From: an uncultured Prevotellaceae bacterium
GTDB taxonomy: Bacteria; Bacteroidota; Bacteroidia; Bacteroidales; Bacteroidaceae
Assembly (NCBI GenBank): GCA_946185805.1
Contig: CAMHKU010000014.1
Coordinates: forward strand, 1 to 38,410
Reading direction: 5' to 3'
Length of the DNA stretch: 38,410 bases
Below, piece by piece: positions 701 through 38,312 of the stretch. Every line of letters starts with the position of its first letter. Position 1 is the first letter of the stretch. Made by a program: the position numbers and the translations under genes. The notes below the pieces were generated by a model. The model searched no databases. It saw nothing but the letters and a program-made list of their open reading frames with translations, and was not told where the DNA came from.

Positions 701-768
701 TCACTTTTCACTCTTCACTTTTCACTCTTCACTTTTCACTCTTCACTCTTCACTAGGCACGCAGTGCC
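701..768. repeat. Heptamer tract (TTCACTY) followed by a GC mini-hairpin
   Basis: About eight copies of a 7-nt unit (tcacttt alternating with tcactct) run from 701 to 755. They are followed at once by a perfect 5-bp stem with a 3-nt loop, GGCAC-GCA-GTGCC (756-768). The element fills the gap between DUF3822 and rsmD and ends 3 nt before the DUF3822 stop codon. The pattern of a heptamer tract plus a small trinucleotide-loop hairpin recurs elsewhere in the window. Confidence 0.85.
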
Positions 769-770
769 GC

Positions 771-1583
771 CTACCGTCCTTTGGTCAGCAGCGTCATCAA
801 GTCAAAAGGCATACCCTTCACCCCCGTTGCCGGCGCCTGATGTAACTCTGCCGAGGGATTGATTTTGTACACCTTCTGCAGGTATCGCCGCAGCTCATCC
901 ATCAGCCACTCCTGCTCCGGCAGGTCACCCACAAGGTGCAACTCGTCATGCTCGGGCTGTAACATCAGCTGTTTCCACACGTACAACAGGAAATAGAGGA
1001 TGTCGTGAGCATTATTCACCTCAAACTGATTGCAGAACTTAAAACGGTTCTGCTGGAAAGAGAACACATCAAGCCTGCGCTCACGGAAATAGCCGTAGAG
1101 CTTGTTGCGGGCACCGGTGAACGACCGCTGGTAGAGATGCCGCCATACCGGCGACATAGCCACGATAAACTTCGCATCGCTGAAGTTATCGTCGACAACC
1201 AGCTTCAGGTCTTTGTTCATAGCAAACACCGTGACGGCATTCAAGTCAGGCAGCACATTATAGAGCACGGCATCCTGGTCATGACCCGGAAAGGCGTAGC
1301 GATAGAGTTCCACTATGTCGGGTTCCTGAAACTGTTCTACCGGCACCATCAGCACTGGCACATCCATCAATACCTGTACCTTGCAGATATCCTGACTGCG
1401 CAGGTCGGCACCCTTGAACGCCTCACGCAGGTTGGCAGCCATCGACATGCCGCTCTTCACCACATAGGGCTGAAAGGTGACCGGCGCCGACGACAGCGCA
1501 GGGGCTATGGAGGCAAACGACAGGCTATGCTTACCAATCCTGATAACCAAGCGGAGATTCCGCTGATTCTGTTCTATTTCCAT
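771..1583 (-). CDS. DUF3822 family protein
   Basis: A 270-residue soluble protein without a signal peptide or membrane segment. I recognise it as a DUF3822 protein, a Bacteroidetes family of unknown biochemical role. The N-terminal beta-rich pattern (RLVIRIGKHSLSFA, about residues 11-24) and the later VNNAHDILYFLLYVWKQLML stretch fit this family and suggest an actin-like ATPase-type fold, though that is inference. It sits directly upstream of rsmD in the same orientation, an arrangement I recall as common in Bacteroidales. The start ATG (1581-1583) is 7 nt downstream of the stop of a tiny membrane-protein gene. The family assignment is from recalled sequence features, not a search. Confidence 0.8.
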   Translation of the reverse strand: MEIEQNQRNLRLVIRIGKHSLSFASIAPALSSAPVTFQPYVVKSGMSMAANLREAFKGADLRSQDICKVQVLMDVPVLMVPVEQFQEPDIVELYRYAFPGHDQDAVLYNVLPDLNAVTVFAMNKDLKLVVDDNFSDAKFIVAMSPVWRHLYQRSFTGARNKLYGYFRERRLDVFSFQQNRFKFCNQFEVNNAHDILYFLLYVWKQLMLQPEHDELHLVGDLPEQEWLMDELRRYLQKVYKINPSAELHQAPATGVKGMPFDLMTLLTKGR

Positions 1584-1590
1584 ATCTTTG

Positions 1591-1689
1591 CTATTTCACT
1601 GCCGACACCACACTGGCCACGCAGAGCGCCAGCAGGGCAGCGGCAATGAGCGTCAGCACAACATTTATCAGCTTGTTTGATGTAATCAT
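1591..1689 (-). CDS. Putative 32-residue single-pass membrane protein
   Basis: A short reading frame starts with ATG at 1689 and ends with TAG at 1591. Its product begins MITSNKLINVVLTLIAAALL and continues with a hydrophobic, alanine- and valine-rich stretch ending VVSAVK. Residues 7-30 would form one transmembrane helix with a short polar, lysine-bearing N-terminus. It begins 27 nt downstream of a strong TAATTTTG box and is followed after 7 nt by DUF3822, so position supports translation. Small hydrophobic proteins of about 30 residues (for example those called smalltalk) are known in Bacteroidales, and I cannot say that this belongs to that family. No function is assigned. Confidence 0.55.
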   Translation of the reverse strand: MITSNKLINVVLTLIAAALLALCVASVVSAVK

Positions 1690-1696
1690 TCAAATT

Positions 1697-1731
1697 ATTT
1701 TCGTACCTTTGCGCTGCAAAATTACGAAAAT
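1697..1731. promoter_or_regulatory. Near-palindromic bidirectional promoter
   Basis: The arms 1697-1712 (attttcgtacctttgc) and 1716-1731 (gcaaaattacgaaaat) are inverted copies matching at 14 of 16 positions around a 3-nt centre. Each arm carries a Bacteroidetes -7 box: TACCTTTG on the plus strand (1704-1711) for the helicase gene, and TAATTTTG on the minus strand (1717-1724) for the small ORF, DUF3822 and rsmD. The boxes interlock, so the two predicted start sites lie within a few bases of each other and the two polymerases could not bind at the same time. I saw no convincing -33 elements at the standard spacing. Confidence 0.75.
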
Positions 1732-1741
1732 ATTTTGAATA

Positions 1742-3415
1742 ATGATTGCCGACGAACTAAAATATCGTATTTTTGAAGCTTTTAGCTTTCCGCCAACGAC
1801 GGAACAGGCGGTGGCCATCAGTGTGTTCACCGACTTCCTAACGTGCCGCGATCCTCGGGCGGTGATGATTCTGCGCGGCTCGGCGGGTACGGGTAAGACC
1901 ACGCTGGCCGCCGCTATCGTCAAGGCGCTAACGGTGCTCAGGCAGAAGCTGGTGCTCATGGCTCCCACGGGACGGGCGGCCAAGGTATTTTCCCTATATG
2001 CCGGACAGCCGGCCTACACCATCCACCGCCGTATCTACCGTCAGCGGTCGGCGGGCGACATGTCGACATTCAACCTCAATGTCAATCTCAGCAACGACAC
2101 ACTCTTCATCGTCGACGAGGCATCGATGATCAGCAACCAGGGCTTTGGCGAATCGACCTTCGGCTCTGGCTGTCTGCTCGACGACCTGATCACCTTTGTC
2201 TACAGCAACGACGGCCAGTCGGTAGTAAGGCGCGCCGGGGGCGAGAACTGCCGCCTGCTGCTCATCGGCGACCGCGCCCAGCTGCCGCCCGTGGGCGAGG
2301 AAACAAGTCCCGCATTGTCGGCAGAGGTGCTCCGCGGCTACGGGCTGCAAGTTTTCGAGACCGACCTCAATGAGGTGCTGCGCCAGTCGCAGCAATCGGG
2401 TATCCTGTGGAACGCTACGATGATCAGAGGTGAGGGGCTTCTTAGTGGTGAGGAGTCTATTAGAGGTGAGGGGCAAGAGGTGAGAGGTGAGAGGTTTTCA
2501 CTGCCGAGAATCCGGCTGCAGGGGTTTAGTGACATCCACGTGGTGCCTGGCGACGAACTGATAGAGTCGCTGGCCACGAGCTACAGCCGCGCCGGCATGG
2601 ACGACACGCTGGTCATCACCCGCAGCAACAAACGTGCCAACATATACAACCAGGGCATCCGCAACACCGTGCTCGACCGCGAGGAACTGCTCTGCCGCGG
2701 CGACCGACTGATGATTGTGAAGAACAATTATTATTGGATAACCACCCAACACCCCACCACCCTACAACCCACCCCCAACCCCTCCCGAAGGGAGGGGGGC
2801 TTAGATACCTCTACCCGAGATAACTCCGCACAAAATCAGCAGCAGAGTAATCAGACTCCCCTCCCTTCGGGAGGGGTTGGGGGTGGGTTGTTGGGTGGGG
2901 GGTTGTTGGGTGGGGGAGGGTCTTCTTTCCTCGCCAACGGCGACATGGCCACGGTGCAGCGGGTACGCAACGTCCATGAGCAATACGGCTTCCACTTCGC
3001 CGAGGTGACACTGCAGTTTCCTGACTACGACGACATGGAGCTTACCTGCATGGTGCTGCTCGACACGCTCACCGCTGAAGCGCCGTCGCTCACCCGCGAC
3101 CAGCAACAGCAGCTCTACGAGGGTGTCATGGCCGACTATGCCGACATCCCGCTGAAGAGCGACCGTCTGAGGAAACTCAAGGAAGACCGCTACTACAACG
3201 CCCTGCAGGTAAAGTTTGCCTATGCTGTCACCTGCCACAAGGCGCAGGGCGGGCAGTGGGCGCATGTCTACATAGACCAGGGCTACATGACCGACGACAT
3301 GGCGGGCGGCGACTACCTGCACTGGCTATACACGGCTTTCACCCGCGCCACAGAGCAGCTCTTCTTGGTCAACTGGCCGGCAAGTATGTTGTCAGGACAC
3401 ACTAACAGCCAATAA
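1742..3415 (+). CDS. RecD-like ATP-dependent DNA helicase with two inserted loops
   Basis: Superfamily 1 helicase of the RecD/AAA_30 type, 557 residues. The Walker A motif GSAGTGKT (46-53), a Walker B-like FIVDEAS (about 120) and the C-terminal UvrD_C_2 signature VTCHKAQGGQW followed by YTAFTRATEQLFLV are all present. It probably acts in DNA repair or recombination as a stand-alone 5'-3' helicase, since no RecB or RecC partner is nearby. Two segments look foreign: residues about 228-256 (Arg/Gly/Glu-rich, from a gaggtga tract) and about 334-396 (Pro/Thr then Gly/Leu-rich, from a large inverted repeat). Without them the protein would be about 465 residues, nearer the size I expect. Both inserts are in frame and avoid the motifs. 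Confidence 0.9.
   Translation: MIADELKYRIFEAFSFPPTTEQAVAISVFTDFLTCRDPRAVMILRGSAGTGKTTLAAAIVKALTVLRQKLVLMAPTGRAAKVFSLYAGQPAYTIHRRIYRQRSAGDMSTFNLNVNLSNDTLFIVDEASMISNQGFGESTFGSGCLLDDLITFVYSNDGQSVVRRAGGENCRLLLIGDRAQLPPVGEETSPALSAEVLRGYGLQVFETDLNEVLRQSQQSGILWNATMIRGEGLLSGEESIRGEGQEVRGERFSLPRIRLQGFSDIHVVPGDELIESLATSYSRAGMDDTLVITRSNKRANIYNQGIRNTVLDREELLCRGDRLMIVKNNYYWITTQHPTTLQPTPNPSRREGGLDTSTRDNSAQNQQQSNQTPLPSGGVGGGLLGGGLLGGGGSSFLANGDMATVQRVRNVHEQYGFHFAEVTLQFPDYDDMELTCMVLLDTLTAEAPSLTRDQQQQLYEGVMADYADIPLKSDRLRKLKEDRYYNALQVKFAYAVTCHKAQGGQWAHVYIDQGYMTDDMAGGDYLHWLYTAFTRATEQLFLVNWPASMLSGHTNSQ
2424..2505. repeat. In-frame heptamer tract in the helicase gene
   Basis: A degenerate gaggtga/gaggggc tract encodes an Arg/Gly/Glu-rich loop in the RecD-like helicase. 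The repeat type is the same as the gagaggt tract inside mutY (4433-4458) and the intergenic tract at 18211-18250. It contains no stop in the used frame and keeps the downstream helicase motifs in frame. Confidence 0.7.
2740..2932. repeat. Large in-frame inverted-repeat element in the helicase gene
   Basis: Arms 2765-2796 and 2859-2890 are perfect 32-nt inverted copies separated by about 62 nt. Each arm contains its own small palindrome, CCCTCCC-GAA-GGGAGGG (2780-2796) and CCCCTCCC-TTC-GGGAGGGG (2858-2876). Degenerate ccaccc/gggtgg repeats continue outward on both sides. The whole segment is translated in frame as a Pro/Thr-rich, Gln/Ser-rich, then Gly/Leu-rich loop of about 60 residues. A related palindrome lies in nadB (9780-9800). 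It behaves like a small non-autonomous element tolerated in a coding sequence. Confidence 0.8.
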
Positions 3416-3538
3416 CTTAATTCATGTTTCGCATTCGCGCAACTTGCATGTAGTAAAGGATTTATGGTGATGTGGAGGCTTACAGACTTACAGATGACAG
3501 ACGGATGGACATCGGAAAAGTCATAGTGCTTGATTATT

Positions 3539-3612: not shown

Positions 3613-3640
3613 TGAATATAATTACTATGAATAATGTAGG

Positions 3641-4216: not shown

Positions 4217-4240
4217 AATAGCTATGTTTGGTTTTTCCAT
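4193..4240 (-). repeat. 24-bp tandem duplication of the purN start
   Basis: Two adjacent 24-nt copies, each starting with atggaaaaac and differing at two positions, encode MEKPNIAI and MEKLNIAI. The outer copy reaches into the end of mutY, whose stop codon is at 4222-4224. The duplication gives purN two possible ATG starts, one overlapping mutY and one 5 nt after it. Confidence 0.85.
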
Positions 4241-5289
4241 AATTCTTCCAACAACAGTTCTATGAGCCGCGGCACGGCATACTGGTCTATCTCATCTTCC
4301 CTGATCCAAAAATAGCCGTCGGGCAATGCCGGCCGCTCTTCCGGCTCCCAGAGGTAGAAGTCTGCATAGAGCACACGGTGGGTCAACACATGCTTGACGC
4401 TTTTCTTTAGAAGGGAGAGATTGTTTAGAGGGGAGAGGTGAGAGGTGAGAGGTGAGAGAATACCTAAAGCACTGAAAATTTCTCTTACCTCTCCCCTCTC
4501 ACCACTTACTTCTAAACACAGCGGCTCATAGAGTCCCTGCCAGATGTCGCCGGGGCCGCGACGGTGGATGGCTGTACAGCCATTGCTGCGGATATATATA
4601 TAAATAAGGTGGCGCTCGGCAACCTTCAGCTTGCGTTCCTTCACGGGCAGCTCCCCCACCCTACCCTCACGCAGGGCTACACACGTCTCAGCCAGCGGAC
4701 ACCGCCCGCAATGCGGACTCTGCGGCGTACACTGCAGGGCGCCAAAGTCCATAATCGCCTGGTTGTAGTCTGCCACGGTCTCTGGCAACAAGCTCTGCGC
4801 CAGCGCCGCAAACACTTTCTTCCCCTCCGTAGTATTGATAGGCGTGTCGATGCCGAAATGCCGGCTGAGCACGCGGTAGACATTGCCATCGACCACCGCC
4901 GCCGACAGTCCGAAGGCGAAGCTGCCGATGGCCGCCGCCGTATAGTCGCCCACGCCCTTGAGGGCTCGCAGACCCTCTACCGTGGTGGGGAACCCGCCTT
5001 GCGCCACCACCTGGCGGGCAGCGGCATGCAGGTTGCGCGCACGGCTGTAGTAGCCTAAGCCCTGCCACTCTCGCAGCACCTCGTCCTCGGTGGCGGCGGC
5101 GAGGTCGGCCACCGTCGGCCACCGACGCATGAACCGCTGCCAGTAGGCCATGCCCTGCTTCACCTGTGTCTGCTGCAGAATAATCTCTGACAGCCAGATG
5201 GCATAGGGGTCGCAAGTCTGCCGCCAGGGCAGCTCACGGCCGTTCTCACGAAACCAGCGGAGGAGGGACAGGGCAAAGTAACTATTCAA
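4222..5289 (-). CDS. mutY: A/G-specific adenine glycosylase MutY
   Basis: Removes adenine mispaired with 8-oxoguanine. The 355-residue protein has the HhH-GPD glycosylase domain: LPWR near residue 19, catalytic Glu35 in SEIILQQTQV, helix-hairpin-helix KGVGDYTAAAIG (111-122) and catalytic Asp134 in VVDGNVYR. The iron-sulfur cysteines Cys187, Cys194, Cys197 and Cys203 have the exact C-X6-C-X2-C-X5-C spacing. The C-terminal NUDIX-like 8-oxoG recognition domain is present but carries a foreign Ser/Leu-rich insert (about 251-284) written by a heptamer tract. The start codon is TTG. No in-frame ATG exists between it and the upstream stop, and the family alignment needs a start here. It overlaps the purN start region. 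Confidence 0.95.
   Translation of the reverse strand: MNSYFALSLLRWFRENGRELPWRQTCDPYAIWLSEIILQQTQVKQGMAYWQRFMRRWPTVADLAAATEDEVLREWQGLGYYSRARNLHAAARQVVAQGGFPTTVEGLRALKGVGDYTAAAIGSFAFGLSAAVVDGNVYRVLSRHFGIDTPINTTEGKKVFAALAQSLLPETVADYNQAIMDFGALQCTPQSPHCGRCPLAETCVALREGRVGELPVKERKLKVAERHLIYIYIRSNGCTAIHRRGPGDIWQGLYEPLCLEVSGERGEVREIFSALGILSPLTSHLSPLNNLSLLKKSVKHVLTHRVLYADFYLWEPEERPALPDGYFWIREDEIDQYAVPRLIELLLEELWKNQT
4433..4503. repeat. In-frame heptamer tract with inverted partner inside mutY
   Basis: Three full gagaggt units plus a partial one (4433-4458) are followed about 25 nt later by an imperfect inverted copy (ctcttacctctcccctctcacc split over 4482-4503). Together they can form a hairpin. On the minus strand the segment is translated as the Ser/Leu/Pro-rich loop of MutY's C-terminal domain, with no stop. 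Confidence 0.75.
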
Positions 5290-5334
5290 CTCTTCAATCT
5301 TTGATTTTCTAATCTTTTAATTTTTCAATTTTCC

Positions 5335-6643: not shown

Positions 6644-7906
6644 TTATAATTTGATAGGGTAACTGATTACTAATTCCGTAAAGTCGGCCTTCGTCAAGTG
6701 GGCGTTCAGGCTCACGCCGAGGGTCAGGTTGCTGAGCGCGGAAAACGTATAGAAGAGCCCTATGCGCTCGTAGTAGGGTTTCTCTATCTCTTTGGCATTG
6801 CTGCCCATCTCGCGGTAGAGATAGTAGCCTATGGCCATCTGCAGCGAGGCGTTGTGATAATACACGGTATGGTTGGCCGAGAGTCCCACCGACCAGGGGC
6901 TGTGCTTCACATGTCGCCCTGCCCGCTCGTCAAGGTCGGCCACGTGGTCGGCATAGGAACCGTAGAAGAGGTCGGCACCGATGCCCGACGCCCAGCGGCG
7001 CGCATAGCGGTACATCAGCTTGGTATGCAGCGAGTAAGCCATATAAAAGGTAAAGTCCTCGGTGCAGTAGTCGGGGTCGCTCACGGGCAGCGCCTGCGTG
7101 CGGTGCCAGTCTTCGAGCAGCGTCTTGCCACCCACTCCAAGAGAGAGGTCTAAGGTGATGGGTGATGGGTGATGGGTGGTGGGTGACGGGTGATGGGTGG
7201 TGGGTGATGGGTGGTGGATGGAGGGTGACGGGTAGTGGGTGGTAGCCTCATAGTAGGGCGTATAGACCAGTGAGAGCGATGGGCCGAGGGAGTTGGCGCC
7301 TTTATTAGGGCGCGCCAGGGCGCCGTTGCTGTGGTGACAGAACTCCACGCCGGCCTTGATGCCCCAGTTGGGCACGGGATGATAGGTGACGTGCAGGCCG
7401 GCATTGAAATAGATGGACAGGTGGGAACCAATCAGCTCGTTGTCGATGTCGTCGGTCTTGTTGTAAATCGTGCTGCTGTAGCCCACGCCTGTGCCTAAGG
7501 CGTAGTCGGCCTCCCAGTGGCGACTGCGGAAGAAGGGTCTTGAGAAGGTGCCATAGAGCGTCAGCGTGTTGCCCAGCGGCGAAAAGTAGTCGGTGGTGCG
7601 CGGCTTCTGCATCTTCACGTGGCGGTTGTCGCCATAGCGTAGGCCGACGCTGATGGTGGGATAGCCGAAGTCACGGTCGATGGCCGAGCTGTCGCCGGGC
7701 AGTGCCGAGTGTATCGCCTCCACGCTGACGGCGAAGCCATCGTTGTCGTAGAGCCACTGTCTGACCCACTCGTCGAGGGCCAGCTGCCAGTTGGGGTTCA
7801 CGCTCACGCCGTAGCCCCAGTGGCGCAGGGAGTCGCCGCCGGCAGCCATCGCTACCGCCGCTTGCCACAGCATGGCCGTCACGATTAAAAAGCGGCCTAT
7901 TCGCAT
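6644..7906 (-). CDS. PagL-like lipid A deacylase / acyloxyacyl hydrolase family outer membrane protein
   Basis: A 420-residue exported protein with a signal peptide (MRIGRFLIVTAMLWQAAVAMA) and an alternating beta-barrel pattern ending in KL. The HHSNGA motif (191-196) matches the His-Ser active-site region of the PagL family, which removes or trims acyl chains of lipid A in the outer membrane. The ATG at 7906 is chosen; an in-frame TTG at 7918 adds four residues. The start overlaps the dacB stop by 10 nt, so the two are probably translationally coupled. After residue 220 a foreign Tyr/His-Pro-Ser-rich loop with a 7-residue period is encoded by a gggtgat tract. The family is confident, the exact substrate is not. 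Confidence 0.8.
   Translation of the reverse strand: MRIGRFLIVTAMLWQAAVAMAAGGDSLRHWGYGVSVNPNWQLALDEWVRQWLYDNDGFAVSVEAIHSALPGDSSAIDRDFGYPTISVGLRYGDNRHVKMQKPRTTDYFSPLGNTLTLYGTFSRPFFRSRHWEADYALGTGVGYSSTIYNKTDDIDNELIGSHLSIYFNAGLHVTYHPVPNWGIKAGVEFCHHSNGALARPNKGANSLGPSLSLVYTPYYEATTHYPSPSIHHPSPTTHHPSPTTHHPSPITLDLSLGVGGKTLLEDWHRTQALPVSDPDYCTEDFTFYMAYSLHTKLMYRYARRWASGIGADLFYGSYADHVADLDERAGRHVKHSPWSVGLSANHTVYYHNASLQMAIGYYLYREMGSNAKEIEKPYYERIGLFYTFSALSNLTLGVSLNAHLTKADFTELVISYPIKL
7152..7250. repeat. In-frame heptamer tract inside the PagL-like gene
   Basis: About twelve to fourteen degenerate 7-nt units (gggtgat, gggtggt, gggtgac) run through the coding sequence. Because 7 is not a multiple of 3, the translation repeats every 21 nt, giving the 7-residue motif HHPSPTT three times plus a variant HYPSPSI. 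All reading phases of the tract avoid stops in the used strand. It is probably a surface or periplasmic loop between beta strands. Confidence 0.85.
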
Positions 7907-9144: not shown

Positions 9145-9152
9145 TTCGGCTG

Positions 9153-12353: not shown

Positions 12354-12410
12354 AAAATGCTTATGACCAATAGCGAGAGTTTTCGAGGTGCGAGGTGCGA
12401 GATACAAGGT

Positions 12411-18211: not shown

Positions 18212-18250
18212 TGGTAAGAGGCAAGAGGGGTGTGGTGAGAGGTAAGAGTA
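18211..18250. repeat. Degenerate heptamer tract between convergent genes
   Basis: Units such as ggtaaga, ggcaaga, ggtgaga and ggtaaga fill the 45-nt space between the multi-barrel gene and the TPR gene that faces it. No classical terminator hairpin is seen here. Confidence 0.65.
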
Positions 18251-24710: not shown

Positions 24711-24780
24711 TCCCCCCCCACCCATCACCTATCACCTATCACCTATCACCCATCACCTATCACCCATCACCCATCACCAA
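24711..24780. repeat. C tract and heptamer tract between trkA and trkH
   Basis: An eight-C run is followed by about eight units of cctatca or cccatca. The tract ends five bases before the trkH start. It takes up nearly the whole intergenic space and would form the trkH 5' leader region if trkA and trkH are cotranscribed. Confidence 0.85.
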
Positions 24781-26246: not shown

Positions 26247-26354
26247 AATAATTCATTATTCACAATGCACAATGCATAATTCATCACAATGCATAATTCA
26301 TAATCGCGAAGCGACAACTCTAAATTCTAAACTCTAAACTCCTAATTCTCAAAC
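26247..26354. repeat. Two heptamer tracts joined by a mini-hairpin before manA
   Basis: A tract of cataatt/cacaatg units is followed by a perfect TCGC-GAA-GCGA stem (26304-26314), and then by a second tract of taaattc/taaactc units up to the manA start. The arrangement repeats the tract-plus-trinucleotide-loop-hairpin layout seen at 701-768 and 30276-30368. No gene is present in this gap. Confidence 0.85.
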
Positions 26355-27347: not shown

Positions 27348-29360
27348 ATGTGGCGACTGACAAAGGTTATTATAAAATCCATAGCTGCCATCTTCCTGCT
27401 GACGATACTGGCAATGGCGGGGCTGTTTGTTGCTATAGAGACTGACAGCATCCAGCAGTCATTGTTAAAGAAAGCTACGGCAATCATTAGCCAACGGCTG
27501 GGAACGATGGTGAACATAGGCCACATCAGCCTCGACCTGATGGGTCTGCACGTGGTCATGAGCGACATAGCCATAGCCGACCTGCAGCAGCGGCATCTGC
27601 TGCAGATAGATGAATTAGGAGTACACTTGGACGCCTGGCAACTGATTGACAGACAGCTGGTGGTGACCGAGGCCCATGTAGAGGGCATGGCGGCAAAGCT
27701 ACATCAGGCACGTGGAGACACAGTAGCTAACTACCAGTTTCTGATTGACGCCCTGCGCGACACCACCAAAACGGCGCATCGCGACAGCACGGCTATAGCG
27801 AGAAAGAAGCGGAAAATGCAGCTCGACGTGAGACGGCTGCGCCTAGAACGCATCACTATTGACTATGAGAAGGAGGGCAAGGAGCAGCATGTAAGAATAG
27901 GCATGGGCGACATGCATCGCCGTGACGAGCGCTACCTGATAGATATTGACACCCTCTATATCGTAACCGACAACCACCGTCCGCGGAAGAACCACGGCAA
28001 GCCCAAACGTGGATTCTTCGACGTCGGTCATCTGAACATCATGGCTCGCGTGAACATGGAGGTGACGCCACGTGGCCATGACAGCATAGAAGCCGTCATC
28101 AACAACTTGGCGGCCACTGACATCGGCTCAGGACTGACGGTGAAAAGCCTGACAGCTCGCGTAGTTACCAACAAAGAGCTGGCAAACGTGGAGGCACTCA
28201 CTATCAGCCTGCCACAGACGACGCTCAACATTCCCCGCGCCGTAGTGCGGCTGCCGAGCAAGAAGGCCGGCAGAAGGCTGGCATGGAGTGCACCGAGAGT
28301 GAAAGGACGCGTAGTGCTACAGGATATTGCCCACGCCTTCGCCCCAGTACTCAGAAACTTCACGGAACCGCTGATGCTACAGACGGCGTTCAGCGGTACC
28401 GATGACGGTTTGCGCTTCACTGGCGTCAACGTGAGCACACCCGACAAGAAACTACATATCAAAGCCGCCGGCGCCATTAACCACCTGAAGAAAGGGCGCG
28501 AACTGAAGATTCACTTCGACGTGCAACAGATGAGAGCGAAGACGGGCGTCAAAGAGCGCATTATCAGCCAGTTCCCGGTAAAGAAACTGATGATGACTCA
28601 GCTCCACGCCCTCGGCGACATTGGCTATCAGGGACATTTCGATGTGGTGTGGCGGCGGGAGACCTTTGCTGGACTGCTGACGACCGCCGGCGGACCGCTG
28701 CGCTTTAACTTCACTATCGATGGTAACAGTAAGTATGTGACGGGCGCTGTGAAGACCGACTCCTTTGAGTTAGGACAGGTGATGAACCTCAAACAAATAG
28801 GTAAGATAGCCTGCGAGGCGCAATTTAAGATAGACATCTCGAAACCCCGCACAGCTCGCATGCGACGTGAGAAAGGTGGCAAACTACCCATCGGCGAAGT
28901 CGAAGCACATGTCTTTGAAGCCAAGCATAAACTGGGTCGCGTGAAAAACCTCTACGCTACGATCGCCAGTGACGGCGCCGTGGCCGAAGGAAGCCTCTGC
29001 ATCCACGGCAAGCACATGGACGTGGTCTGCAGCTTCTCGTTTACCAATACTGACGACATGCACAAAATGAAAGTAAAGCCAGGCCTGAAGTTCCATAAAC
29101 TGACCGAAGAAGACCGTGCAGCCAAGGAACAACGCAAAGCCGAGAAGGCGGCAGCCAAAGAGCAACGCAAAGCCGAGAAGGCGGCAGCCAAGGAACAGCG
29201 CAAAGCCGAGAAGGCGGCAGCCAAGGAGCAGCGCAAAGCCGAGAAGGCGGCAGCCAAGGAGCAGCGCAAAGCCGAGAAAGCGGCAGCCAAAGAGCAGCGC
29301 AAAGCCGAGAAAGCGGCAGCCAAAGAGCAGCGCAAAGCCGAGAAAGCCGCCGCGAAGTAA
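27348..29360 (+). CDS. AsmA-family protein with Lys/Ala-rich repeat tail
   Basis: A 670-residue membrane-anchored protein. One N-terminal transmembrane helix (about 10-30, SIAAIFLLTILAMAGLFVAI) is followed by the AsmA-like N-terminal pattern (SQRLGTMVNIGHISLDLMGLHVVMSDIAI) and a long beta-rich periplasmic part. This family bridges inner and outer membranes and is linked to lipid transport and outer membrane homeostasis; the precise role is inferred. The C-terminus is seven 11-residue repeats of KEQRKAEKAAA (593-669), predicted to be a long basic helix. I do not know such a tail in typical AsmA proteins. It lies in the long rightward run from dxs. Confidence 0.75.
   Translation: MWRLTKVIIKSIAAIFLLTILAMAGLFVAIETDSIQQSLLKKATAIISQRLGTMVNIGHISLDLMGLHVVMSDIAIADLQQRHLLQIDELGVHLDAWQLIDRQLVVTEAHVEGMAAKLHQARGDTVANYQFLIDALRDTTKTAHRDSTAIARKKRKMQLDVRRLRLERITIDYEKEGKEQHVRIGMGDMHRRDERYLIDIDTLYIVTDNHRPRKNHGKPKRGFFDVGHLNIMARVNMEVTPRGHDSIEAVINNLAATDIGSGLTVKSLTARVVTNKELANVEALTISLPQTTLNIPRAVVRLPSKKAGRRLAWSAPRVKGRVVLQDIAHAFAPVLRNFTEPLMLQTAFSGTDDGLRFTGVNVSTPDKKLHIKAAGAINHLKKGRELKIHFDVQQMRAKTGVKERIISQFPVKKLMMTQLHALGDIGYQGHFDVVWRRETFAGLLTTAGGPLRFNFTIDGNSKYVTGAVKTDSFELGQVMNLKQIGKIACEAQFKIDISKPRTARMRREKGGKLPIGEVEAHVFEAKHKLGRVKNLYATIASDGAVAEGSLCIHGKHMDVVCSFSFTNTDDMHKMKVKPGLKFHKLTEEDRAAKEQRKAEKAAAKEQRKAEKAAAKEQRKAEKAAAKEQRKAEKAAAKEQRKAEKAAAKEQRKAEKAAAKEQRKAEKAAAK
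29124..29354 (+). repeat. Seven 33-bp tandem repeats (KEQRKAEKAAA)
   Basis: Seven consecutive 33-nt copies differ only at a few silent sites (aag/aaa, gaa/gag, aac/cag region) and encode the 11-residue helix unit of the AsmA-like protein. The low synonymous divergence points to recent expansion. The array is in frame, so gain or loss of a unit changes tail length only. Confidence 0.92.
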
Positions 29361-29395: not shown

Positions 29396-29977
29396 ATGAT
29401 TTACATTGACGACCATATCAACGACTTTGACTTGGAGGCTGGGCTGGAACTCATCAGCGACCAGCGGCGCGAGCAGGCACTGAAGTTCAGACACGAGCAG
29501 GGCCAGCGAACATGTGTGCTGGCATACCTGCTACTGATGCGTGGGCTGCGCCAGGAGTTCGACATCAGCGAACAACCGATATTCGAGTATAGCGAGCACG
29601 GCAAACCATACATCGTTGGTCACCCTGAAGTGCACTTCAACCTAAGCCACTGCCGCGAAGCTGTTTTCTGTGCCGTCAGCCACCAGCCGGTGGGCGTTGA
29701 CGTAGAGTCTGTGCGCGAGTACAAGGAGTCGCTGATAGACTATACCATGAATGTCGACGAGCAGGCACTGATACGCCGCGCCGAGCGCCCAGAGGTGGCG
29801 TTCACCAAGCTGTGGACGCAGAAGGAGGCACTGCTGAAGCTCACCGGCGAGGGCATCAGCCGCGACCTGAAGACGGTGCTCTCTCAGGCCAGCGGTGTCA
29901 GCTTCACCACGGTGGAGCGATTAGACAAGAACTACATATACACAATATGTAAATATAATGGTAAAAAAGATTGTTAA
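29396..29977 (+). CDS. 4'-phosphopantetheinyl transferase superfamily protein
   Basis: Transfers the phosphopantetheine arm of CoA to a carrier-protein serine. The 193-residue protein is of Sfp/AcpT type: Mg-binding Asp102 and Glu104 in VGVDVESV, and the W-x3-E-x3-K signature in KLWTQKEALLKLTGEG (Trp140, Glu144, Lys148). The FNLSH motif (81-85) precedes. The carrier protein is not in the window, so the substrate is open (ACP of fatty acid or aryl-polyene synthesis are candidates). Its leader is a decamer repeat (29363-29390) of the aactccttct family. The last 20 nt overlap the next gene. Confidence 0.88.
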   Translation: MIYIDDHINDFDLEAGLELISDQRREQALKFRHEQGQRTCVLAYLLLMRGLRQEFDISEQPIFEYSEHGKPYIVGHPEVHFNLSHCREAVFCAVSHQPVGVDVESVREYKESLIDYTMNVDEQALIRRAERPEVAFTKLWTQKEALLKLTGEGISRDLKTVLSQASGVSFTTVERLDKNYIYTICKYNGKKDC

Positions 29978-31070
29978 GTTTCTAAAAGAGTGGACACTGG
30001 CCTGCGCCATAACGGTGGGTACGTTGGTCTATCTCACATTCTACTGGGTACCGCAGTTAGACGAACTGGGCAACCGTCTGTCACCTGTCATCGACACGCT
30101 GTTTCCGCTATCAGTGTTCATGACACTGTTTGTAACCTTCTGCAAGATAGACTTTCACCAGATGCGCCCCCACCGCTGGCACGCCGCCGTACTCGCGGCC
30201 CAGCTGCTGCTGGTAGCAGTGACCGTAGCAATTATACTATGGGCTAAGCAGGGCGCCACCGCCGGCGACAGCAAATTCTTCACTCTCCACTCTTCACTCT
30301 CCACTATCCACTCTTCTTGCGTCCCTTCGGTAGCAAGCGAGCAGAGCTCGAGCGCACTCTTCACTAACGAAGCGCCCCTATTGTGGGAGGCTCTGCTCAC
30401 CTGCATCATAGGCCCGGCAGCATCGGCATCACCCGTGGTGGTGGGCAAGCTGGGCGGCAACATCTCAACCATGACTGGCTACGTACTGTTGTCGTCGCTG
30501 GCCTCAGCTGTCATGATTCCACTGGTATTTCCCATGCTTGAGCAAGCGGTTCATGTAGACTTCACCACGGCTTTCCTCATCATTCTCGAAAAGGTATCCA
30601 CCGTACTGCTGCTGCCGCTGGCCTTAGGCTGGGTGGTGCAGCACTATCTGCCGCGACTGCAACAACGCATCGCCGTCCACCCTAACCTGAGTTTCTACTG
30701 CTGGGCGGTGTCGCTGAGCATCACCACGGGCATCACCGTCAAAAACATCGTCCACAGCGAGGCTGCCGTCAGCCTGCTCATAGCCATCGCCATTGCCTCC
30801 TTATTGCTCTGCTTCTTGCAGTTTGCCATCGGCCGCGGCATAGGACGGATGATGAGCAGCGACAACACCGCCAAAAACAACAGACCGACGGAGATTGAGA
30901 TTAACACCGGCCAGGCGCTGTTTCAGAAAAACACGGCACTGAGCATCTGGGTGGCCTACATGTATCTCAATCCCGTAGCATCTATCGGCGCCGGCTGCTA
31001 CGTGCTCTGGCAAAATATCATCAACACCGTAGAGATATGGCAACATCATAAATTGAATATTGAACATTGA
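29958..31070 (+). CDS. BASS-family (bile acid:sodium symporter-like) transporter
   Basis: A 370-residue inner membrane protein with about nine to ten hydrophobic helices. The region LLTCIIGPAASASPVVVGKLGG and the later QALFQKNTALSIWVAYMYLNP resemble the crossover substrate- and sodium-binding motifs of the BASS fold. The substrate is unknown; members move bile acids, pantoate, pyruvate and other organic anions. The start overlaps the phosphopantetheinyl transferase gene by 20 nt, so coupling is likely. A link to pantothenate metabolism would be attractive but is speculation. Residues about 107-137 are a Ser-rich insert from a heptamer tract between predicted helices 3 and 4. Confidence 0.75.
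   Translation: MVKKIVKFLKEWTLACAITVGTLVYLTFYWVPQLDELGNRLSPVIDTLFPLSVFMTLFVTFCKIDFHQMRPHRWHAAVLAAQLLLVAVTVAIILWAKQGATAGDSKFFTLHSSLSTIHSSCVPSVASEQSSSALFTNEAPLLWEALLTCIIGPAASASPVVVGKLGGNISTMTGYVLLSSLASAVMIPLVFPMLEQAVHVDFTTAFLIILEKVSTVLLLPLALGWVVQHYLPRLQQRIAVHPNLSFYCWAVSLSITTGITVKNIVHSEAAVSLLIAIAIASLLLCFLQFAIGRGIGRMMSSDNTAKNNRPTEIEINTGQALFQKNTALSIWVAYMYLNPVASIGAGCYVLWQNIINTVEIWQHHKLNIEH
30276..30368. repeat. In-frame heptamer tract plus hairpin inside the transporter gene
   Basis: Units of ttcactc/tccactc/tatccac are followed by a CTTGC...GCAAG stem (30316-30337), a perfect CGAGC-AGA-GCTCG stem (30338-30350), and a further ttcacta unit. It is translated in frame as a Ser/Thr/His-rich loop. This is a coding-sequence copy of the intergenic module seen at 701-768. 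Confidence 0.85.
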
Positions 31071-31085
31071 AGATTGAAGATTGTA
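31047..31085. repeat. Heptamer tract at the end of the transporter gene
   Basis: Units attgaat, attgaac, attgaag and attgaag overlap the last codons of the transporter (residues KLNIEH and the TGA) and run into the gap. As with rsmD and dxs, the tract appears to supply the gene's C-terminus and stop. Confidence 0.75.
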
Positions 31086-33628: not shown

Positions 33629-33653
33629 CACGAAAATAGCTAAAAGCCGAAAT

Positions 33654-36401
33654 ATGGACGACGAAATCATAGAGGAGGGACAAACGATAAGCGAAGAATC
33701 AAAAAACGAGGAAAGCGGGACCAGGAGTGAGGAACAAGAGGCTCATTCCGACTACAAGCCTGTTAACAGGTTTGACGCCTCTGCCGTTCACCACCTGAGC
33801 GGCATGTACCAGAACTGGTTTCTGGACTATGCCTCTTACGTTATCCTGGAGCGTGCCGTGCCCAACATCGAGGACGGCTTTAAGCCCGTGCAGCGCCGTA
33901 TCATGCACTCGATGAAGCGCATGGACGACGGACGATATAACAAGGTGGCCAACATTGTAGGTCACACCATGCAGTTTCATCCCCACGGCGACGCCTCCAT
34001 CGGCGACGCCCTGGTGCAGTTAGGACAGAAAGACCTGCTCGTCGACACCCAGGGCAACTGGGGCAACATACTCACCGGCGACCGCGCCGCCGCACCACGA
34101 TACATCGAGGCGCGGCTGTCGAAGTTTGCCCTTGACACCGTCTTCAATCCCAAAACCACCGACTGGCAACTGAGCTACGACGGCCGCAACAAGGAGCCTA
34201 TCACGCTGCCGGTGAAGTTTCCGCTGCTGTTGGCACAGGGCGCCGAGGGTATTGCGGTAGGCCTCAGCTCAAAAATCCTGCCCCACAACTTCTGCGAGAT
34301 CTGCGACGCCGCCGTAAGCTACCTGCACGGCGAGCCGTTTCAGCTGTATCCCGACTTCCAGACCGGCGGCTCCATCGACGTAAGCAAGTATAACGACGGC
34401 CAGCGCGGCGGCGTGCTCAAGGTGAGGGCAAAGATTGAGAAATTAGACCAGAAGACGCTCGTCATCCGCGACCTGCCCTACTCGAAGACCGTGGAAACGC
34501 TCATCGAGAGCATCAAGAAAGCCATCGAGAAGGGCAAGATCAAGGCCAAGCGCGTTGACGACCTCACCTCGGCACAGGTAGAGATACAGATTCACCTCAT
34601 GCCCGGCGTAAGCAGCGACAAGACGCTTGACGCCCTCTACGCCTTTACCGACTGCGAAATCAACATCTCGCCCAACTGCTGCGTCATCAGCGACCAGAAG
34701 CCGCAGTTCCTCACCGTGAGCGACGTGCTGCGCCACAGCGTCGACCGCACCAAGGACCTGATACGCCAGGAGCTGGAAATCCGTCGTGGAGAGCTGCTAG
34801 AACAGTATCACTTCTGCTCGCTGGAGAAAATCTTTATCGAGGAGCGCATCTACAAGGACAAGAAGTTTGAAGAGGCGCCCAACGTCGACCGCGTCTGCGA
34901 GCATATCGACGAGCGGCTGACGCCGTGGTACCCCCAGCTGGTGCGCGAGGTGACCAAGGACGACATCCTCAGGCTGCTGGAAATCAAGATGCAGCGCATA
35001 CTGAAGTTTAACAAAGACAAGGCCGACGAGCTAATGGCGCGTATCAAGGCCGAGATTGACGAGATAGACCGCGACCTGGCGAACCTGGTGGAGGTGACCG
35101 CCGACTGGTTCCGGTTCCTCAAGGACAAGTACGGGGCGCAACACCCGCGGCTGACAGAAATACGCAACTTCGACACCATCGAGGCCACGAAGGTGGCCGA
35201 GGCCAACCAGAAGTTGTATATCAACCGCAACGACGGCTTCATAGGCATGGGACTGAAGAAGGACGAGTTTGTGTGTAACTGCTCCGACATCGACGACATC
35301 ATACTCTTCTACAAGGACGGCAAGTACAAGGTCATCCGCGTGGCCGACAAGATATTCGTGGGCAAGAACGTGCTCCACGTGCAGGTATTCAAGAAGAACG
35401 ACACGCGCACGATATATAATGTGGTGTACCGCGACGGCAAGAAGGGCGCCTGCTATATCAAGCGCTTCAACGTGACGAGCATGACCCGCGACAAGGAGTA
35501 TGACCTGACGCAGGGCACACCGGGGTCGAAGGTGATGTATTTCACCGCTAACCCCAACGGCGAGGCCGAGGTGATCAAGGTGACCCTGGACCCCAACCCC
35601 AAGCTGAAGAAGATTTTCATTGACAAGGATTTCTCGGAGGTGCTCATCAAGGGCCGTGCCTCAAAGGGCAACCTGCTGACGAAATTCAGCGTCCACCGCA
35701 TAGGTCTGAAGAGCCACGGACACTCCACACTGGGCGGCCGCAAGGTGTGGTACGACCCCGATGTCAACCGACTGAACTACGATGAGCACGGCCGCCTGCT
35801 GGGCGAGTTCTTCGACGACGACCAGATACTCGTGGTGCTCAAGAACGGCGACTTCTACCTGACCAACTTCGACGTGAACAACCACTACGAGGCCGACATC
35901 CTGAGAATAGAGAAGTTTGACGCCGACAAAGTGTGGAGCGCCGTGCTCTACGATGCCGACAACCAGGGCTACCCCTATGTCAAGCGCTTCCTGATGGAGG
36001 CCACCAAGCGCAAGCAGAACTTCGTGGGCGAGAACTCCGTGTCGAAGCTCATACTGCTCACCGACGTGGTCTATCCCCTCATCAAGGTGACCTACGGCGG
36101 CAACGACGAGTTCCGCGGTTCTGAGGAGGTGGACATAGAGCAGTTTATCAGTGTCAAGGGCTTCAAGGCCAAGGGCAAGCGACTGACAACCTACCAGATA
36201 GAGAGCATCCAGGAACTGGAACCCACACGATTCCCCGAAGTCTCCGAAGACCCAGAGGCCTCAGAAGCCCCAGAAGCCCCAGCCCCCCCCACCGAGAACC
36301 TCGACCCTGACGCCGGCAAAAGCCAGCAGCAGATTATTGACGAGATAACCGGGCAAACCAACCTGTTTGCAGCCTTCGACCTAAATGACGATGAGAAATG
36401 A
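33654..36401 (+). CDS. parC: DNA topoisomerase IV subunit A (GyrA/ParC family)
   Basis: Breakage-reunion subunit of a type IIA topoisomerase that decatenates daughter chromosomes. The 915-residue protein has an acidic N-terminal tail (1-35), the winged-helix domain with catalytic Tyr150 in AAAPRYIEARLS, and the resistance-determining loop FHPHGDASIGDAL (108-120). A coiled coil and beta-pinwheel domain follow, and the tail is Pro/Glu/Ala-rich (about 860-885). It lacks the GyrA-box signature as far as I can see, so ParC is preferred over GyrA. Ala114 and Asp118 stand at the positions of E. coli ParC Ser80 and Glu84. An eight-C run (36283-36290) lies in the tail. The parE gene is not in the window. 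Confidence 0.9.
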   Translation: MDDEIIEEGQTISEESKNEESGTRSEEQEAHSDYKPVNRFDASAVHHLSGMYQNWFLDYASYVILERAVPNIEDGFKPVQRRIMHSMKRMDDGRYNKVANIVGHTMQFHPHGDASIGDALVQLGQKDLLVDTQGNWGNILTGDRAAAPRYIEARLSKFALDTVFNPKTTDWQLSYDGRNKEPITLPVKFPLLLAQGAEGIAVGLSSKILPHNFCEICDAAVSYLHGEPFQLYPDFQTGGSIDVSKYNDGQRGGVLKVRAKIEKLDQKTLVIRDLPYSKTVETLIESIKKAIEKGKIKAKRVDDLTSAQVEIQIHLMPGVSSDKTLDALYAFTDCEINISPNCCVISDQKPQFLTVSDVLRHSVDRTKDLIRQELEIRRGELLEQYHFCSLEKIFIEERIYKDKKFEEAPNVDRVCEHIDERLTPWYPQLVREVTKDDILRLLEIKMQRILKFNKDKADELMARIKAEIDEIDRDLANLVEVTADWFRFLKDKYGAQHPRLTEIRNFDTIEATKVAEANQKLYINRNDGFIGMGLKKDEFVCNCSDIDDIILFYKDGKYKVIRVADKIFVGKNVLHVQVFKKNDTRTIYNVVYRDGKKGACYIKRFNVTSMTRDKEYDLTQGTPGSKVMYFTANPNGEAEVIKVTLDPNPKLKKIFIDKDFSEVLIKGRASKGNLLTKFSVHRIGLKSHGHSTLGGRKVWYDPDVNRLNYDEHGRLLGEFFDDDQILVVLKNGDFYLTNFDVNNHYEADILRIEKFDADKVWSAVLYDADNQGYPYVKRFLMEATKRKQNFVGENSVSKLILLTDVVYPLIKVTYGGNDEFRGSEEVDIEQFISVKGFKAKGKRLTTYQIESIQELEPTRFPEVSEDPEASEAPEAPAPPTENLDPDAGKSQQQIIDEITGQTNLFAAFDLNDDEK

Positions 36402-36402
36402 T

Positions 36403-36502
36403 AAATGATAAATGACAAATGATAAACGTGGGGAGGGTATGCGGTAGTAAACGACTGAGAATGGCAGCGAGTTTGTCATTGATTATTTGTCATTTATCAT
36501 TT
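36403..36502. repeat. Heptamer inverted repeat across the parC/DUF3316 junction
   Basis: The arm aaatgataaatgacaaat (36403-36420) is perfectly complementary to 36485-36502. Both arms are built of 7-nt units (gataaat, gacaaat). The right arm is followed at once by a GCCC-GCA-GGGC mini-hairpin (36504-36514). The left arm holds the first bases of the downstream start codon, and the right arm encodes the hydrophobic core of that protein's signal peptide. In mRNA the stem would cover the start codon. Confidence 0.85.
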
Positions 36503-37249
36503 AGCCCGCAGGGCGCCTATGCTCAGACTGATGTAACAACAACCTATCAGGCAGGCGTGGGCGGCACCAACGTTCTTGACACTTACCTCTCACAAGAGAA
36601 GTTCAGCGGCACAGGCTTCACCCTGCTCTTTAGCAACGAGCGGCGACGCCCCGACAAGGCATGGTCGACGATGATTGAGCATGAGCTGAACATTGCACCA
36701 ACAAAAGACCGCTCCACTACCGTCAGTGAGCTGCAGGGCGACTACACGTTTTTCATAGGACGCTATCGGCAGTGGCGGTTAGGGCGTCTTGACCTGCAGG
36801 CCGGCGCTCTGGCAGCCCTCAATCTGGGATTTATCTACAACACCAGCAACAGCAACAACCCCGCCCAAGGACGGCTGTCGCTACAGGCCATGCCGTCAGG
36901 CACCGCCACTTACCATTTCCCACTGCTCGGCCGCCAGTGGTCACTGCGCTACGAGCTTGAGTTGCCGCTACTGGGCGTCATGTTCAGCCCTAACTACGGA
37001 CAGTCATACTATGAAATATTCTCACGCGGCAACTACGACCACAATATCGTGCCCACAACTTTCGTCTCAACACCTCATGTGCGCCAGCAGCTTACTGTCA
37101 GTTGCCGCGTAAGTCCCTCACTGACGCTGCTCGTGGGCTATCTCGGCAACTACCAACAGGCAGAAGTCAATAATCTGAAGTCACATATCTATCACCACCG
37201 CGTCATGATTGGTGTCGTGCGACAACTTACCATCACTCCACGTCTATGA
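36419..37249 (+). CDS. DUF3316 family exported protein
   Basis: A 276-residue protein with an N-terminal signal (basic n-region KRLRM, hydrophobic [12 protein letters not shown], cleavage near GAYAQ) and a beta-barrel-like body rich in alternating strands. I recognise it as DUF3316, a Bacteroidales family of unknown function probably in the outer membrane. The ATG at 36419 gives a rather long n-region; Met15 (36461) is an alternative. The signal-peptide core is written by a heptamer repeat arm and its end by a mini-hairpin. It follows parC by 17 nt and overlaps the S41 protease gene by 4 nt (ATGA), so the latter two are probably coupled. Confidence 0.75.
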
Positions 37250-38259
37250 GAAATATCGTCGCTTTCATCACATACTTTCTTGCAGCAATATGCCTGACAT
37301 CTTGTGTTGACGAGGAAGAATTCCCCGACACGCCGCAGGGTAATTTTGAGGCTCTGTGGAAGATTATCGACGAGCACTACTGCTTCCTCGACTACAAAGG
37401 CCATCAGTATGGGCTCGACTGGCAGGAAGTCCACGACCGCTATGCCCGCCAAATCAGCAGCAAGATGACCGATACGCAGCTGTTTGAGACTCTCGGCAAC
37501 ATGCTCAGCGAGTTGCGCGACGGTCATGTCAACCTTACAGCGGCCCACAATATGGCACGCTATTGGCAGTGGTTTGAGCAAGCCCCGACAAACTACAGCG
37601 ACACCCTGGAACGCATCTATTTGGGAACAGACTACAAGATTGCCGCCGGCATGAAATACAAGATCTTCGACGATAACATAGGCTATATACGTTATGAGTC
37701 GTTCCTCGACGGCGTAGGCGCCGGCAACCTGAGCGAGGTGCTAAGCTATTTTCTGCTCTGCCGCGGACTCATTATCGACATCCGTGGCAACGGCGGGGGC
37801 AACCTTACCAATGCCGAGAAGATTGCCTCCCGATTTACCAATGAGCGTACACTCATTGGCTACATACAGCACAAGACCGGACCTGGCCACAGCGACTTCT
37901 CCGACCCAGAACCCCGCTATCTCGACCCTGCTGCCAGCCTGCGATGGCAAAAGCCCGTCTGCGTGCTCACCAACCGTCACGTCTTCTCCGCCGCCAATGA
38001 GTTTACGATGTATATGAAAGCCCTACCCTTGGTCACCGTGGTGGGCGACGACACCGGCGGCGGCGCCGGCATGCCTTTCAGCTCATCGCTACCCAACGGC
38101 TGGATTGTGCGATTCTCGGCGGTACCGATGTACGACGCCGACCACCAGTCTACAGAGTTCGGCATTGCCCCACATGTGCGCGTCAGCCTCACCGAACGTG
38201 ACTTCATACGCGGGAAAGACACGCTGATTGAGACGGCAAGAAAGCTTTTGGCCAACTAA
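37246..38259 (+). CDS. S41 family peptidase lipoprotein
   Basis: A 337-residue lipoprotein serine protease. The lipobox ends at Cys20 (ICLTSC), followed by VDEEEF, an acidic sequence consistent with surface export in Bacteroidetes. The S41 core shows LRDGHVNL (His94), [12 protein letters not shown] (175-186), and the nucleophile region [10 protein letters not shown] with Ser248. No PDZ domain is evident, which fits the S41B-like subgroup. The substrate is unknown. The start overlaps the DUF3316 stop by 4 nt, and the pairing suggests that both act together at the outer membrane, which is inference. Confidence 0.88.
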
Positions 38260-38284
38260 GCCCGTCAAATAGTTAACAAATCAT

Positions 38285-38312
38285 AAAGTTCAAAGTTCAA
38301 AGTTCAAAGTTC
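38285..38312. repeat. Perfect heptamer tract before the tRNA promoter
   Basis: Four exact copies of aaagttc stand 13 nt upstream of the -7 box of the tRNA-Leu promoter. This is the cleanest heptamer tract in the window and lies where a -33 element would be expected. Confidence 0.9.

Follow-up and report, generated by a model that had tools for sequence, protein, structure and literature searches.

Tandem tracts of heptanucleotide units, variable in sequence and often in inverted pairs, in a rumen Prevotella lineage

Results

We analysed a stretch of 38,410 nt from an uncultured Prevotellaceae bacterium (GenBank assembly GCA_946185805.1, contig CAMHKU010000014.1, positions 1 to 38,410; hereafter the window), in which numerous short tandem tracts are built from units of seven nucleotides. 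In the genome from which the window is taken and in its rumen Prevotella relatives, the unit lengths of tandem repeats show a peak at 7, exact two-copy repeats of this length are in excess, the units differ at orthologous places, and the tracts often stand in inverted pairs whose arms change together between species. The likely origin of the tracts is replication slippage in steps of 7 nt combined with hairpin-templated strand switching, an explanation that we hold with little more than even confidence.

A preference for seven nucleotides

The window is contig C14 of a 150-contig, 2.75-Mb assembly that is 73.6% complete, and 810 of 2747 kb (40 stretches plus the window) were scanned; we refer to this part as the source genome. 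The TrkA protein of the window is up to 89% identical to rumen Prevotella or Prevotellaceae records. The relatives used for the unit-length spectra are 80 loci (1.52 Mb around trkA), the best 80 of 311 TrkA loci. The genomes compared represent one per species, genes were called with a simple caller of our own on which all coordinates and junctions depend, and the lists of units vary with the settings of Tandem Repeats Finder (TRF).

After deduplication of the TRF arrays, the source genome has 178 arrays of period 7, as compared to 31, 33, 23 and 11 arrays of periods 8, 9, 10 and 12. The 80 relatives have 182 arrays of period 7, and 42, 30, 6 and 13 arrays of the other periods, respectively. 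This sharp peak bears out an earlier sequence-only reading of the window, according to which the unit length stays at seven throughout. The second peak that it had envisaged at 10 nt is modest in the source genome (the 23 arrays) and not common to the relatives (6). Its statement that the units differ completely does not hold, as recurrent unit classes exist: ACCCATC, AAGATTG and AAATAGT account for 27, 19 and 17 of the 178 tracts. Apart from this, a period of 22 nt forms a second peak, with 21 arrays in the trkA relatives and 7 in the family sample.

The same preference is seen in the shortest repeats. At junctions between co-directional genes, exact two-copy runs at lag 7 number 70 versus 12.7 expected in the source genome and 71 versus 14 in the relatives; the figures for lag 8 are 17 and 32 versus 5.7 expected in each, and at lags 4 to 6 such runs are fewer than expected. 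For lag-7 runs of any length the counts are 133 versus 10.6 and 103 versus 15.0, respectively. Convergent and divergent junctions also have a lag-7 excess, which is lower per base (16 versus 2.4 in the source genome, 35 versus 6.8 in the relatives).

The lineage distribution was followed in samples of 400 kb each from the family (17 genomes), the class and the phylum. No heptamer array was found in the other genera of the Prevotellaceae (280 kb, 14 genomes), so that the abundance of heptamers is a trait of the lineage and not of the family. Within the family sample, the three genomes of the same genus (120 kb) have two arrays, both in G052; the class sample has eight and the phylum sample one. 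A weak lag-7 excess is present outside the lineage (10 versus 3.4 in the other family genera, 17 versus 6.5 in the class), and the co-directional junctions of the phylum sample show no two-copy lag-7 excess (5 versus 4.3). In other words, it looks as if a mild bias towards 7-nt duplication is more widespread than the lineage and is strongly amplified within it.

Differing units at orthologous sites

Six orthologous sites keep the unit length of 7 with differing units, namely the trkA-trkH, dxs-trkA and trkH-manA junctions, the site between glyS and a bamJ-type gene, the site between parC and the gene of a secreted protein, and the linker of MutY. At the trkA-trkH junction the two genes overlap directly in many relatives, and others have a tract of CCTCTTA, CACCTTT, AAAGTTC, CACCCTT or ATTGAAG, or an 8-mer. 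On the TrkA tree, with tract labels assigned by hand, the eight heptamer tracts (seven relatives and the source genome) require eight changes and comprise seven unit types; by TRF, 9 of 79 relatives have a tract here. Tracts with other units occupy the dxs-trkA junction in 6 of 78 cases and the trkH-manA junction in 5 of 42.

The MutY linker, which joins the catalytic and the C-terminal parts of the protein, was compared in 30 loci including our own, the top-scoring among 83 matching genomes, a choice that favours near relatives. Lag 7 is the top lag with a score of at least 12 in 18 of the 30 loci, and no other lag is the top one at this score in any of them. By TRF, with the two strands merged, the linker units form 14 classes in 18 loci, 13 of them among the loci scoring at least 12; examples are CTCTCAC, CTCTTAC, CTCTCTC, GGAGACA, AATTGTC, AAGGAGA, ACCGCTC, GGAAGAG, ATTATCC, AATTGAG and AGCCAAG. 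Slow drift of an ancestral MutY tract is unsupported by the relation of unit distance to MutY identity (rho -0.12, 133 of 1000 permutations), and the closest pairs of loci do have similar units. It is conceivable that the gain or loss of one 7-nt unit in the linker at 4427-4458, which would shift the frame of this repair gene, acts as a switchable mutator.

We also considered the copying of blocks between loci. In the six classes investigated, the shared run of units is not clearly beyond shuffles, the smallest values being 7 of 200 for AAATAGT and 12 of 200 for ACCCATC, with 112 to 184 of 200 for the other four; the order of variants within a class is thus not clearly shared beyond chance, which speaks against block copying. 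The sequence-only reading had proposed a comparison of orthologous sites, and differing tract sequences were indeed found at the same places in related genomes. Together with the peak at 7, this favours a generating mechanism over descent from one sequence, as had been suggested, while the recurrent unit classes and flanking modules described below leave room for dispersal.

Inverted pairs of tracts

Two pairs of arms of the window, and the tract of the trkA-trkH junction, are the following.

36391..36426, + strand: 5' arm of ATGATAA heptamers, in which the parC-like gene (33654-36401) has its stop codon and which extends into the leader of the next gene (TRF, gene calls, family match, orthologs)
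36472..36503, + strand: 3' arm of TTTATCA/TTTGTCA heptamers, reverse complement of the arm 36391..36426 (TRF, inverted-pair test)
4427..4458, - strand: CTCTCAC heptamers, in frame in the MutY linker of gene 4222-5289 (NCBIfam MutY, TRF, 30 orthologous linkers)
4480..4505, - strand: arm complementary to 4427..4458, located upstream of it in this linker (fold z -4.2, complement scores 18 and 21)
24719..24778, + strand: CACCCAT/CACCTAT tract occupying most of the trkA-trkH junction (TRF, ortholog comparison, tree)

The two arms at 36394-36502, noted by the sequence-only reading, are confirmed to be inverted, and the pairing is general to a degree that this reading had not foreseen. Of the 25 tract pairs in the relatives with less than 200 nt between them, 18 are inverted and two direct (5.5% inverted expected); of 29 such pairs in the source genome 8 are inverted and none is direct (7.4% expected). 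Many tracts have no inverted partner. The pairs sit between genes (two of them between convergent genes), where 14 to 126 nt, often 40-60 nt, separate the arms, and also in the MutY linker and around gene starts. Strong complementary arms are seen in 7 of the 30 MutY linkers. That inverted arms occur not just in leaders but also between convergent genes and within mutY fits a process at the level of DNA.

The paired arms at 36391-36503 give a predicted RNA fold of -38.8 kcal/mol (z -4.9), and four examples, which were picked because their arms pair, have strong folds with z between -4.2 and -13.4. A comparison of the window and five loci with Rfam at gathering score returned a single match, a tRNA in L061.

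Placement, strand and reading frame

The placement of the tracts follows the reading frame. Co-directional junctions have a tract more often than convergent and divergent ones, in the source genome (96 of 431 versus 6 of 116, p 6e-6) as well as in the relatives (93 of 883 versus 16 of 262, p 0.03). Units in which one strand or both have a stop codon number 159 of 168 in the source genome (letter-shuffled mean 130, maximum 142 in 300 shuffles) and 140 of 159 in the relatives, a value that chance can reach (shuffled mean 130, maximum 141). Among source-genome tracts that touch the stop codon of the upstream gene, 46 have stops in sense orientation only and 5 in antisense orientation only (26 and 8 in the relatives). 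Further than 10 nt from the upstream stop the strand bias is not significant (19 sense versus 10 antisense in the source genome, 6 versus 15 in the relatives). Tracts within genes, on the other hand, mostly have a stop-free sense strand (56 of 61 in the source genome, 50 of 61 in the relatives). Both the bias near stops and the stop-free intragenic strand are as expected from a reading-frame filter.

An overlap of start and stop codons (NTGA, never CTGA) was rejected as a key to the unit sequence. The pattern, which had seemed perfect by eye, is weak given the low C content of the units (junctions, p 0.05 in the source genome and 0.005 in the relatives), and there is no effect in genes (p 0.26 and 0.31). 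As a separate observation, about 8 of the 51 source-genome junctions listed (L008, L009, L014, L021) terminate directly before a ATTATGATTAC-like gene start, and the proteins begin with MIT.

Tracts at putative signal peptides

In one layout that recurs, an arm directly follows the stop codon of the upstream gene and its complement encodes the core of the likely signal peptide of the next protein. Positions 36391-36503 of the window are an instance, as the arm 36472..36503 encodes 10 residues that form, by eye, the putative hydrophobic core of the signal peptide of the protein after parC. We note that signal peptides and lipoboxes were assigned by eye or with a simple motif throughout.

In 53 relatives glyS (NCBIfam glycine--tRNA ligase) is followed by a gene for a BamJ-family lipoprotein, the family having been identified in L040 only. 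In 20 of the 53 species the 50-nt stretch preceding the lipobox cysteine is tandem (lag 7 in 15, lag 8 in 2, lag 9 in 3), in the other 33 it is not, and the presence of the tract, labelled by hand, changes 13 times on the tree of the 53 taxa. The leader past the glyS stop codon is more complementary to the signal tract of its own species (mean score 15.4) than to those of other species (8.8; n=20, 0 of 5000 permutations). A complementary leader with a score of at least 12 is also found in 4 of the 33 species below the tract cut-off. At the parC site, 30 orthologs of the linked gene, ours included, all adjoin parC; they are the top-scoring among 129 matching genomes, which again favours near relatives. 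A lag-7 tract is present in 7 of them and none in 23, with TTTATCA, ACTGTTC or TCTCATT as units (read by eye). The arms score 8.2 within and 5.9 between species (n=19, 0 of 5000 permutations).

Tracts that start at most 150 nt from the gene start often encode hydrophobic peptides: a mean hydropathy of at least 1 was found for 8 of 12 in the source genome and 16 of 21 in the relatives, where 15 of the 16 are at the glyS site. Examples of such peptides are one of 11 residues and ILFTIHCSLF. As 7 and 3 share no factor, the cyclic heptapeptide encoded by a ladder of 7-nt units is the same whichever frame is read. Hydrophobic heptapeptides such as FIIYHLS and LFTIHCS probably serve as signal-peptide cores, and folding of the leader may influence translation. 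In L214 and L216 (parC site) and in L056 and L067 (glyS site) a signal tract is present while the leader arm is slight or missing, so the signal arm may come first.

Apart from these tracts, four glyS-linked bamJ-type genes (L042, L048, L069, L071) have a tract-free native signal sequence that is itself a near-perfect hairpin (TGATACTGTTCCCA...TGGGGATGGTATCA).

Other tracts and repeats in the window

The sequence-only reading had named 16 tracts, and TRF at a score of at least 30 gives a period-7 row at 14 of these. The remaining two, 18211-18250 and 21801-21839, have no TRF row and are degenerate, with lag-7 scores of 7.0 and 7.5; when 1000 pieces were drawn at random from the window, the tracts themselves included, 26 and 22 of them reached these scores. 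Two further tracts, 12371-12410 and 16505-16541, are weak (TRF scores 36 and 35). Eleven period-7 rows of the window score at least 40, and a lag scan found eight lag-7 segments, whereas Markov resampling, repeated 20 times, yielded none. Of the named tracts, at least four are intragenic (4427-4458 in mutY, 7154-7241, 2462-2495 and 30277-30314). The tracts not listed above are as follows.

701..754, - strand: AGTGAAG/AGTGAAA tract between two co-directional genes, with a sense-strand mini-hairpin GGCACTGCGTGCC and TAG before it (TRF, hairpin scan)
2462..2495, + strand: degenerate AGAGGTG tract within the RecD2-like helicase gene 1742-3415 (TRF, family match, gene calls)
7154..7241, - strand: tract within gene 6644-7906, GGTGATG on the + strand, so that the coding strand is stop-free (TRF, gene calls)
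26248..26341, + strand: a pair of neighbouring tracts in the trkH-manA junction, one of ATAATTC and one of AACTCTA, both degenerate (TRF, junction listing)
30277..30314, + strand: TCTCCAC tract within gene 29958-31070, followed by a hairpin module (TRF, gene calls, module search)
31052..31083, + strand: ATTGAAG tract containing the stop codon of gene 29958-31070 (TRF, gene calls)
38285..38315, + strand: AAAGTTC tract of 4.4 perfect copies, past gene 37246-38259 (TRF)

The hairpin module TTCTTGCGTCCCTTCGGTAGCAAGCGAGCAGAGCTCGAGCG is found at 30314-30354 of the window and in L189 (2383), L006 (9059), L110 (8182) and L106 (11246), that is, at several places of the source genome and in one MutY linker; its small stem varies by matched changes. 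Three other repeats of the window were noted. A 10-nt tandem (AGTTAGAAGG) at 1-49 has its reverse complement some 54 nt further, at 103-165; the two form an inverted pair with a complement score of 39, in a layout like that of the heptamer pairs but with a unit of 10. A long inverted pair at 2741-2921 (ACCACCCAACAACCC... / GGGTTGTTGGGTGGG, with CCCCTCCCGAAGGGAGGGG) is part of the open reading frame of the gene for the RecD2-like helicase (1742-3415). A tandem of 33 nt, a multiple of three, has 6.9 copies at 29118-29344 within gene 27348-29360.

Discussion

Comparison with known repeats

Among the long simple sequence repeats of prokaryotes (units of 5-11 nt), those of 7 nt are described as the commonest, and slippage has been proposed as their source (Mrazek 2007, as told in PMC4679880 and PMC4692102). 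The Prevotella tracts share the excess of the 7-nt unit beyond chance and differ in their co-varying inverted pairs, in the differing units at orthologous sites, and in their use in likely signal peptides and in the linker of a repair protein. Moreover, Bacteroidota in general are said to have a high repeat density (PMC12699852).

The sequence-only reading knew of no equivalent in Bacteroidales, and here the literature corrects it. TAACTGA direct repeats were reported from Beggiatoaceae, cyanobacteria and five Bacteroidetes including Paludibacter propionicigenes (MacGregor 2015, PMC4679880). Paludibacter propionicigenes belongs to Bacteroidales. These are mostly intergenic heptamers with stops in all frames on one strand, which may overlap the end of the upstream gene, are readable in the reversed orientation inside genes, and are accompanied by other heptamer repeats in some Bacteroidetes (PMC4679880). 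They differ in having one fixed sequence and a single indirect repeat, whereas the Prevotella tracts have many units and inverted pairs are common. In 438 kb of the source genome, 89 tracts comprise 33 canonical unit classes, and TAACTGA is none of these. The G-rich heptamers GGGAATC of Xanthomonas and GGGGA(C/T)T of Nostoc likewise are mostly non-coding and vary in length and sequence between close relatives, with some inverted neighbours in Xanthomonas, but they are G-quadruplex formers of one consensus, in contrast to the many kinds of units found here (PMC4692102).

Template-switch mutations are described as creating and mending hairpins (PMC8794818, PMC8604942). They involve nearby reverse-complement arms that are homogenised, also in coding DNA; here too, reverse-complement arms lie within about 200 nt and change together across species. 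The published cases are from RNA genes and yeast genes, whereas the Prevotella arms are tandem heptamers and recur in a lineage.

Rickettsia palindromic elements, repetitive extragenic palindromic (REP) sequences and miniature inverted-repeat transposable elements (MITEs) are palindromic and dispersed, and can lie in frame within genes. Most Prevotella tracts, as opposed to these, lack a fixed consensus.

Two features are thus already in print: heptamers are in excess in bacteria, and those with stop codons can overlap the ends of genes (PMC4679880, PMC4692102). In the openly licensed literature searched we found no account of co-varying inverted heptamer pairs, of signal peptides built from heptamers, or of heptamer tracts in Prevotella.

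A possible mechanism and its alternatives

In the mechanism that we propose, replication slippage with a preferred 7-nt step would make the tandem tracts, hairpin-templated strand switching would copy a tract into an inverted arm, and the reading frame would filter which tracts persist. A tract would often begin in a stretch encoding a signal peptide or a linker, and the leader arm would be a later, inverted copy. The two-copy excess at 7, the differences of units in place, the covariation of arms in coding as well as non-coding DNA, and an order of variants that is not clearly shared between loci favour this combination of slippage and strand switching.

Several points weigh against it. The evidence is limited to changes of units between species, with no mutation event observed, and the mechanism does not explain the preference for 7; lags 8, 9 and 10 are also in excess, if smaller (25 versus 6.3, 15 versus 2.1 and 9 versus 0.7 at co-directional junctions of the source genome). 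Eight of the 18 inverted pairs of the relatives come from a single orthologous site and five have a loop core in common, hence the 18 pairs are not 18 independent events. Mismatches between arms are G-U rather than A-C (37 versus 7; 21 versus 5 in the source genome), which hints at selection on RNA pairing, and the enrichment of mini-hairpins followed by TAR before tracts (odds ratio 10) suggests a larger element. Finally, SbcD is unlinked to MutY tracts in 14 genomes of the genus (present in 1 of 6 with and 1 of 8 without a tract, by eye). Loss of SbcCD had been considered as a cause, SbcD being above cut-off in 12 of 60 genomes of the genus versus 29 of 56 of other genera (p 0.0004), and is a lead only, as this is one contrast between clades.

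The tracts could instead be the arms of a dispersed palindromic element, like a MITE, a REP or a Rickettsia palindromic element, which inserts in junctions or in frame in genes and whose arms then diverge fast. We consider this unlikely; it stays a serious rival because of the recurrent modules beside tracts. Of 438 mini-hairpins of the source genome that have a tri- or tetraloop and are followed by TAR, 14 run into a tract, versus 25 of 7694 without TAR (p 6e-9), the 14 being 12 distinct places as three are one nested hairpin; the relatives show 10 of 623 versus 16 of 9846. AGCGCTACGCT occurs nine times in the source genome, several times directly before AGTGAAG tracts. The loop core, chosen by eye from the pairs of five relatives, recurs at two more places of L063 and weakly in L018 of the source genome, and unit classes are shared more within the source genome (5.5%) than between genomes (1.7%). 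Nevertheless, the mini-hairpin, loop-core and AGCGCTACGCT modules are present at a minority of tracts, and of the nine matches to the hairpin core at 30314 six are our own seeds, chosen beside tracts, with one of the three new matches adjoining a tract. Nor is the order of units clearly common to the tracts of one class. The signal tract at glyS is readable as grown from the native codons ATACTGTTC, and the seven unit types in eight tracts at trkA-trkH would demand eight insertions.

Selection at the RNA level appears less probable still. The paired arms would then be leader or intergenic hairpins of the mRNA, or stop-rich spacers, that tune translation, and their turnover would be compensatory. 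The strong folds of the four examples selected for pairing, the prevalence of G-U over A-C mismatches in sense orientation and the 46 to 5 orientation of stop-bearing strands at upstream stops are in its favour. However, inverted arms are also found in the middle of mutY and between convergent genes, the G-U excess at the glyS site is not significant (23 versus 15, p 0.26), and the stop-orientation bias fades beyond 10 nt from the stop, as the reading-frame filter alone predicts. That the tracts are ordinary heptanucleotide microsatellites, made by polymerase slippage alone and paired incidentally, we hold to be very improbable: heptamers are indeed described as the commonest bacterial repeats of their kind, with a polymerase footprint as the idea behind them (Mrazek 2007 as told in PMC4679880), but inverted pairing and covariation of arms are far above chance, which strains an account by slippage only.

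A further reading can be suggested, which we put forward tentatively and with some doubt. A generator built into the lineage may continually produce 7-nt ladders, together with mirror copies, in the vicinity of gene starts. As a stop-free ladder encodes a single hydrophobic heptapeptide whatever the frame, it would repeatedly replace native signal peptides and linkers with ready-made, frame-proof, species-specific ones, and the mirror copy would provide each gene with a matching hairpin in the leader.

Implications

The preference of bacteria for heptamers has been noted before, and in the literature covered we found no tested cause. Rumen Prevotella offer dense, orthologous and fast-changing cases that make it possible to separate slippage from strand switching and from selection. 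If the mechanism proposed here is true, covariation of arms should not be taken as proof of an RNA function. It would also represent a concrete way for new signal peptides and mRNA hairpins to emerge in nature, and maybe a fast source of export signals.

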